Assembly: GCA_018648325.1 (NCBI GenBank)
Contig: JABGRK010000017.1
Location: forward strand, 62,001 to 126,000
DNA length: 64,000 nt
Direction of reading: 5' to 3'
From: Chloroflexota bacterium
Lineage (GTDB): Bacteria > Chloroflexota > Dehalococcoidia > JABGRK01
In this document: positions 21,226-22,236 of the stretch, one piece after another
Position numbering within the stretch: the first letter of the stretch is position 1
Layout: each line of letters begins with the position of its first letter
Program-made: the position numbers and the translations under genes
Notes under the pieces: generated by a model
Databases searched by the model: none
The model's input: the letters and a program-made list of their open reading frames with translations, nothing else
What the model was told of the DNA's origin: nothing

Positions 21226-22236
21226 ATGAAAAGAAGATATTTTGCATTATTTGTATTAATGATTGTGATCATGCTCTTTGCTTCACTGACCGCTTGTGGT
21301 CAGCCTGATTCACGGATTGGCGGACTCGTCAATTTAGAGGGAGCCTCAAACGTGGGAGATGAATATGACATCATAACTGATCCTTCAGGGGTAAAATATA
21401 TAGTCCACCCAAACAAGATCGTGGGTGGTGGCCCTCCCAAGGACGGCATTCCATCAATTGATAATCCCAAATATGTTTCAATCGCTCAGGCTGATCAATG
21501 GATACAGGATGATGAACTGGTACTGGGTATTATTTATAAGGGAGTAAAACGAGTATACCCATTGCAGATAATGGTCTGGCATGAAATTGTTAATGATACC
21601 ATTGCCGGTGATCCATTGCTGGTTACTTACTGACCATTATGCGGCTCAGGCGTTGCCTTTGAGCGAGTGATTGATCCGGATGATGGTGCGGTTGAGTTTG
21701 GCGCCACAGGCAGTTTATACAATAATAATCTGGTCATGTATGATCGCAGGACAGATTCATATTGGACGCAGCTTGATGGGCTTGCCATCTTTGGCGAGTT
21801 AACCGGGTGGCGATTAAAAATGGTATCTATTAATACCGTAACGTGGGCAGAGTGGAAGGCCCAGCATCCCGATTCACAGGTATTAAGCCAGGATACCGGT
21901 TACAGTAGAGCATATGGTGTAGATCCATACGGTGGTTATTACGAAAGTGACTTCATTCTGTTCCCTGTCGATGGGGAGGATGACAGAATTCATGCCAAGA
22001 CCCTGATTTTTGGTGTGGAAGTCAATGGCATGTTCAAGGCTTATCGCCGGACAGATATCGAAGCATCGGGTGTGATTGAAGATATCATTGGCGGGGTGAT
22101 AATAAAGGTAGAGCTACAAGACGATGGAGGCATTGGGGTTACCAACGTAGATACTGGAGAGCCTGTTGTTGCTGAAAGGTCGTTCTGGTTTGCCTGGTAC
22201 GCATTCCATCCAGAGACATTGTTGTACCCTGACTAG
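21226..22236 (+). CDS. DUF3179 lipoprotein, candidate selenoprotein (in-frame TGA at residue 136)
   Basis: Read through one TGA (21631-21633) this is a 336-residue DUF3179 protein with a lipoprotein signal ending LTAC (Cys24) and an RBS AAGGAGGA before ATG 21226. The TGA replaces the first Cys of the DUF3179 motif (TYCPLCG in homologues), giving a UxxC pair with Cys139; sequence on both sides stays in the same frame and is well conserved (VWHEIVNDTIAGDP before; GSLYNNNLVMYDRRT after). A hairpin fitting a bacterial SECIS follows the TGA. The neighbours are a TlpA-like protein and CcdA, so a redox role is plausible. If the TGA were a real stop, this would be a broken gene. Confidence 0.75.
21644..21664 (+). 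promoter_or_regulatory. Candidate bacterial SECIS hairpin
   Basis: GCTCA-GGC (21644-21651) pairs with GCC-TT-TGAGC (21655-21664), giving 8 pairs with a 2-base bulge around apical loop GTT (21652-21654). The loop starts 18 bases after the TGA and begins with G, as expected for bacterial SECIS elements, which lie 16-37 bases from the UGA. Confidence 0.55.

Follow-up and report, generated by a model that had tools for sequence, protein, structure and literature searches.

The window analysed here, a stretch of 64,000 nucleotides from a Chloroflexota genome of the class Dehalococcoidia, carries on its forward strand a gene for a DUF3179 protein at positions 21226–22236. The gene encodes 336 residues when its one internal stop codon, a TGA at 21631–21633 (residue 136), is read through; the next stop, a TAG, follows after 200 codons. 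An open run of this length past the TGA has a chance of about 1e-5 under simple local base frequencies. With the TGA taken as a residue, the read-through product matches PF11376 (DUF3179) over profile positions 1–292 of 292 with 318.9 bits, the curated cut-off being 27 bits, and thus belongs to this family, as the original prediction of a single interrupting TGA with DUF3179 similarity beyond it had implied. An NCBIfam search with the same protein returned no family.

A likely ribosome-binding site (AAGGAGG, 21213–21219, forward strand), seen in the sequence, lies 6 nt before the ATG at 21226. The first 24 codons (21226–21297) appear, by eye from the translation, to encode a signal peptide that ends in the lipobox-like SLTAC, with Cys24 as its last residue. 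The TGA aligns with the first cysteine of the CPLC motif of relatives, the position also foreseen from the sequence, which makes Cys139 (21640–21642) the second residue of a UxxC motif if the TGA stands for selenocysteine (Sec). His119 (21580–21582), Cys/Sec136 and Cys139 are invariant in all 61 aligned DUF3179 rows, with Sec written as Cys. Residues 98–146 and 260–307 of the protein look like a repeat, sharing a GxxxxG..AY...V.D..GG pattern and a similar strand order. Several homologues match the window protein twice, and the second copy (residues 260–307) has no CxxC.

Two genes lie directly upstream on the same strand, and both had been recognised beforehand as TlpA-like and CcdA genes, an assignment that Pfam matches bear out. 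The first (19954–20490) encodes a TlpA/ResA-like lipoprotein of the thioredoxin fold with a CPTC motif, a proposed electron donor. It matches Pfam Redoxin with 42.5 bits (cut-off 26.6 bits), and its matches to the TlpA/ResA-type models of NCBIfam fall far below their cut-offs. The second (20492–21196) encodes a CcdA-like membrane protein, a proposed transmembrane electron carrier, whose DsbD_TM score of 27.1 bits equals the cut-off exactly and, in the genome search, was 26.5 bits, below the cut-off. Just upstream of the TlpA-like gene, on the other strand, lies a gene (19038–19763) resembling NADPH-dependent FMN reductases (FMN_red, 31.6 bits). Beyond the DUF3179 gene, the minus strand carries two adjoining genes for cyclophilin-type proline isomerases (22368–22841 and 22877–23704; Pro_isomerase, 171.9 and 158.8 bits), and the product of 22877–23704 starts with a lipobox-like sequence and shows fibronectin-III/phosphatase-N-type matches in addition.

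The TGA codon among DUF3179 homologues

DUF3179 matches were found in 19 of 60 relatives searched; G001, which alone among those searched belongs to the genus of the source genome, has none. The best match outside the source genome, in G028, a member of another family of the same class, shares 62% identity with the window protein and contains one TGA, at the same codon. Identity between the two proteins is 59% before the TGA and 65% after it, and downstream of the codon pN is 0.24 and pS 0.84, which is saturated. The decayed downstream half that had been named as grounds for rejecting the selenoprotein reading was thus not found.

A scan of the class found DUF3179 in 143 of 393 genomes. Among the TGA-containing rows listed, the codon occupies the position of the first cysteine of CxxC in 33 of 34, the window's own included, so that homologues do share the TGA column. 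Two of these rows have UTLC in place of UPLC, and one row among those listed has TAG in place of TGA. The exception, L093 (G365:C36), combines an intact CPLC with a TGA near the end of the domain (ETGSK-TGA-NYAGV). Over all examined loci, the TGA falls at the first-cysteine column in 159 of the 165 reading frames whose match to the family contains a TGA, a set in which most loci were picked by a pattern requiring that TGA and several overlap; in five of the six exceptions it lies beside the domain end.

The pattern, applied to named genomes, was HE-[FLIMV]-[IMV]-ND, 10 residues, one of Y/W/F/C/L, TGA and P-[FLIMV]-C. It returned at least 116 stretches with the Sec motif, and the Sec form of DUF3179 thereby spans at least 15 named phyla, with five stretches carrying no phylum. 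Of the 116 listed, 49 belong to Chloroflexota, 19 to Poribacteria and 12 to Acidobacteriota, the rest being spread over others. No stop occurs within the first 150 codons past the TGA in 108 of these 116, and in four more the frame is open up to the end of the stretch. At the remaining listed loci L123, L207, L220 and L163, a stop follows 27, 66, 105 and 134 codons past the TGA, respectively, and these were counted against the selenoprotein reading.

This recurrence bears on the possibility that a cysteine codon was turned into TGA by faulty sequencing or assembly. The source genome (19 contigs) and that of the nearest relative are both draft assemblies, which leaves room for such an error; the same TGA in G028, and its repetition in the class-scan rows and pattern loci given above, speak against it. 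We regard this explanation as barely credible.

Cysteine forms of the family in the same class share their domain and the CPLC column with the window protein; they differ in having a Cys codon instead of TGA and, in 38 Cys sequences, little hairpin signal. A tree built by a quick method with the TGA column masked (121 rows: 86 Sec and 35 Cys) implies six changes between the two forms, counted without direction, at least three of which are forced by well-supported branches. The homologue L027 has no CPLC and reads TYDPIAG there, and L037 seems to read TYTTQAF; from these sequences, the redox pair appears to have been lost in some members of the family.

Selenocysteine machinery and the candidate SECIS element

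The source genome, G000 (1,999,639 bases in 19 contigs, 93% complete), was checked for the means of making and inserting Sec, and all four components sought are present: tRNA-Sec, SelB (342.9 bits), SelA (565.2 bits) and SelD (394.3 bits), each above its own cut-off. SelD (L230; G000:C9:73690–74613, outside the window) has an in-frame TGA of its own, in AGUACK, and itself looks like a selenoprotein. Because tRNA-Sec, SelA, SelB and a SelD with its own TGA occur together, this organism very probably makes and uses Sec. Among the genomes listed with the TGA form, 29 of 33 match SelB at the level of its cut-off, a best E below 1e-70 serving as a stand-in for the cut-off in single-genome calls. 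The remaining four, which are 69–87% complete, were counted against the explanation preferred here. The presence of SelB was dismissed as a discriminator, since 253 of the 393 genomes of the class exceed the SelB cut-off and the argument therefore has little force.

Downstream of the TGA, at 21644–21664 on the forward strand, the transcript can fold into a SECIS-like hairpin of eight pairs with a 2-nt bulge and a GUU loop (21652–21654), 18 nt separating the TGA from the loop. Its energy is -8.0 kcal/mol for 21 nt and -9.6 kcal/mol for 27 nt. The bSECIS rules, as given in a passage of PMC13188914, comprise a loop of 3–9 nt, a stem of 4–16 bp, a G in the first two loop positions, a spacing of 16–37 nt and a minimum free energy of at most -7.5, and the window hairpin falls within these bounds. 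The stem, the G-first loop and the 18-nt spacing of the original prediction therefore stand. Taken alone, the hairpin does not exceed chance, with z-scores of -0.25 and -0.96 against dinucleotide shuffles and a p of 0.10 against synonymous-codon shuffles. Conservation of synonymous sites at the hairpin was also considered as support and set aside: between the window and G028, seven of nine codons are conserved, with a local p of 0.018 and a p of 0.80 for any window.

This result touches the possibility that the TGA is a true stop, leaving either a recent pseudogene or a short lipoprotein of 135 residues. Standard-code annotation would indeed stop at the TGA, and a hairpin within chance is what such a gene could show by itself; against this stand the conserved downstream half with its saturated synonymous change, the TGA in the same column across many independent genomes and the full Sec machinery of G000. 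A true stop is, in our judgement, very improbable.

Because the single-sequence hairpin was not significant, a comparative test was made, with the loop start allowed at 14–30 nt, compared with the published 16–37 nt. A SECIS-type hairpin occurs in 145 of 148 TGA homologues versus 25 of 38 Cys homologues, and the median p of the synonymous shuffles is 0.10 for the former versus 0.52 for the latter (Mann–Whitney, 2.7e-10); the sequences lack independence, they are drawn in part from different subfamilies, and the Sec set includes picks by the TGA pattern. Most TGA homologues (98 of 148) place the first loop base at nucleotide 21 after the TGA. In 86 thinned sequences, 87.5% of the cells of a stem formed by nucleotides 14–20 and 26–32 are paired, compared with 71.8% in column shuffles (maximum 74.8%), 27–44% on sliding the stem and 41% among the 38 Cys homologues. 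Both sides have changed in 75 cells of this stem versus at most 27 in the shuffles, counts that are inflated by the relatedness of the sequences. The hairpins of the window and of G028 use another register, with the loop at +19. Since this stem register differs from that of most homologues, the family covariation backs the window hairpin by kinship only. Across the TGA homologues, these comparisons of sequence give strong indications of a SECIS signal.

Selenocysteine machinery, the shared TGA codon, the conserved downstream protein and the family-wide SECIS signal together strongly support the UxxC reading, and the DUF3179 protein of the window is very probably a selenoprotein, with Sec inserted at residue 136. 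SelB and tRNA-Sec would read the UGA at this codon, and the hairpin, its loop 18 nt further on, would act as the SECIS element.

Proposed redox partners and predicted fold

The product would be an exported lipoprotein with a UxxC redox pair, made up of Sec136 and Cys139, at the outer face of the membrane; the invariant residues His119, Asp124, Asp173 and Trp180 perhaps surround this pair. The co-encoded CcdA would pass electrons across the membrane via the TlpA-like lipoprotein, so that the UxxC pair stays reduced. As a guess, the protein may act outside the membrane on peroxides, oxidised thiols or metal species. This chain as a whole, from the exported lipoprotein and its redox pair to the TlpA–CcdA donor, we hold to be reasonably probable.

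The TlpA-like and CcdA proteins are proposed as partners because the order TlpA–CcdA–DUF3179 is found in two genomes, the window's and G028, and because a TlpA-like gene lies upstream on the same strand at three further loci (L077, L108 and L144). Co-encoded CcdA and TlpA-like proteins, which characterise the CcdA/TlpA thiol pathway, are present at the window locus. A clustering of neighbouring genes over 152 loci, some of them overlapping, placed eight members in the TlpA-like group. The largest groups comprised 22 loci (two on the same strand), 14 loci (none on the same strand) and 13 loci (12 of them downstream on the same strand); by eye they are a dehydrogenase, RecF and a phosphoribosyltransferase, and none of these largest groups indicates a shared function. 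A CcdA-like neighbour was not seen at most DUF3179 homologue loci, which counts against the proposed donor. Upstream of the Cys form at L056 there is a weak match of the CcdA type (E 5e-4), and a 183-residue stretch at this locus matched no Pfam family. The source genome has a second DsbD_TM gene (G000:C8:15239–15838) with 48.4 bits, above the 26.5 bits of the DUF3179-linked gene. Because it scores better, the window CcdA may be specialised.

AlphaFold2 models the window DUF3179 protein with a pLDDT of 88.5 for the whole protein and 96.2 for residues 95–215 alone. Residues 105–207 (21538–21846, forward strand) form a predicted Rieske-like fold in VIA-align comparisons of the domain model, the best Z being 9.3 (rmsd 2.8, 92 aligned residues of 103), with a Z of at least 8 in 26 of 994 chains. 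The best 50 entries, going by their titles, are all Rieske proteins or relatives, NirD included. The whole model gave a best Z of 6.7 in VIA-align, and with it Foldseek returned nothing at or below an E of 0.001. The Foldseek E-values set against the Rieske-like fold are poor, the best being 0.1. Sequence searches of the PDB found no relative: one gave nothing at E up to 1, and another a single match with an E of 1.4. A Rieske-like fold of the DUF3179 domain is put forward as a lead only.

Rieske ferredoxins such as 2qpz and 3dqy resemble the predicted model of residues 105–207 in fold; they differ from it in their ligands and in sequence. Their iron-sulfur ligands are arranged as CxH and CxxH, whereas residues 147–157 and 166–177 of DUF3179, places inferred from aligned ranges and from ligand positions counted on an alignment, have no conserved Cys or His in the 61 rows, either residue occurring in at most eight of 61 in any column. 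HHalign found no profile similarity between 61 DUF3179 and 29 Rieske rows (probability 2.1% on 17 columns). The equal spacing of His119-x16-UPLC and the Rieske CxH-x16-CPxH motif was considered as a correspondence and rejected: the aligned ranges place the ligands elsewhere, and HHalign gave nothing. If the predicted fold is right, the iron-sulfur site would be gone, and His119, Cys/Sec136 and Cys139 would form a different centre. As a tentative conjecture, which we rate somewhat below even, DUF3179 may be a Rieske-fold domain that lacks the iron-sulfur cluster and has a Cys-Cys or Sec-Cys redox centre elsewhere in the fold, at the outer face of the membrane and, in this lineage, with dedicated reduction by CcdA and TlpA.

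The main rival for the chemistry keeps the selenoprotein and gives its centre another task: Sec136, Cys139 and His119 would bind a metal ion or cofactor, and TlpA and CcdA would keep these ligands reduced during assembly. The invariance of all three residues, the resemblance of the predicted fold to a metal-binding domain and the lack of a nearby CcdA-like gene at most other homologue loci are in keeping with metal binding. The conservation of the TlpA–CcdA order in the nearest homologue, G028, points instead to the redox pair, and we judge metal binding to be rather unlikely.

Place among catalogued selenoproteins

A "DUF3179 domain-containing protein" (pfam11376, UxxC/T) is catalogued as a prokaryotic selenoprotein in table passages of PMC9312934 (2022) and PMC13188914 (2026), both of which cite the 2007 study by Zhang and Gladyshev of the symbiont of Olavius algarvensis. 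DUF3179 also occurs in an Idiomarina gene table in the literature. The statement in the original prediction that DUF3179 had not been reported as a selenoprotein family was therefore wrong, the idea of a new family was rejected, and the window gene is a further member of a catalogued one. It shares with the catalogued proteins the Pfam family and Sec as the first residue of UxxC; it differs in its TlpA–CcdA operon, which does not figure in the table passages of the two papers. The string "Chloroflex" is absent from their main text.

Operon context, spread and the predicted Rieske-like fold are possible additions to what is known of this family. Since standard-code annotation ends the gene at the TGA, the protein may go missing from annotated genomes or receive a wrong name. 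The linked TlpA and CcdA genes offer a testable electron donor for the DUF3179 family, and the predicted fold would be a first structural foothold for this uncharacterised domain.
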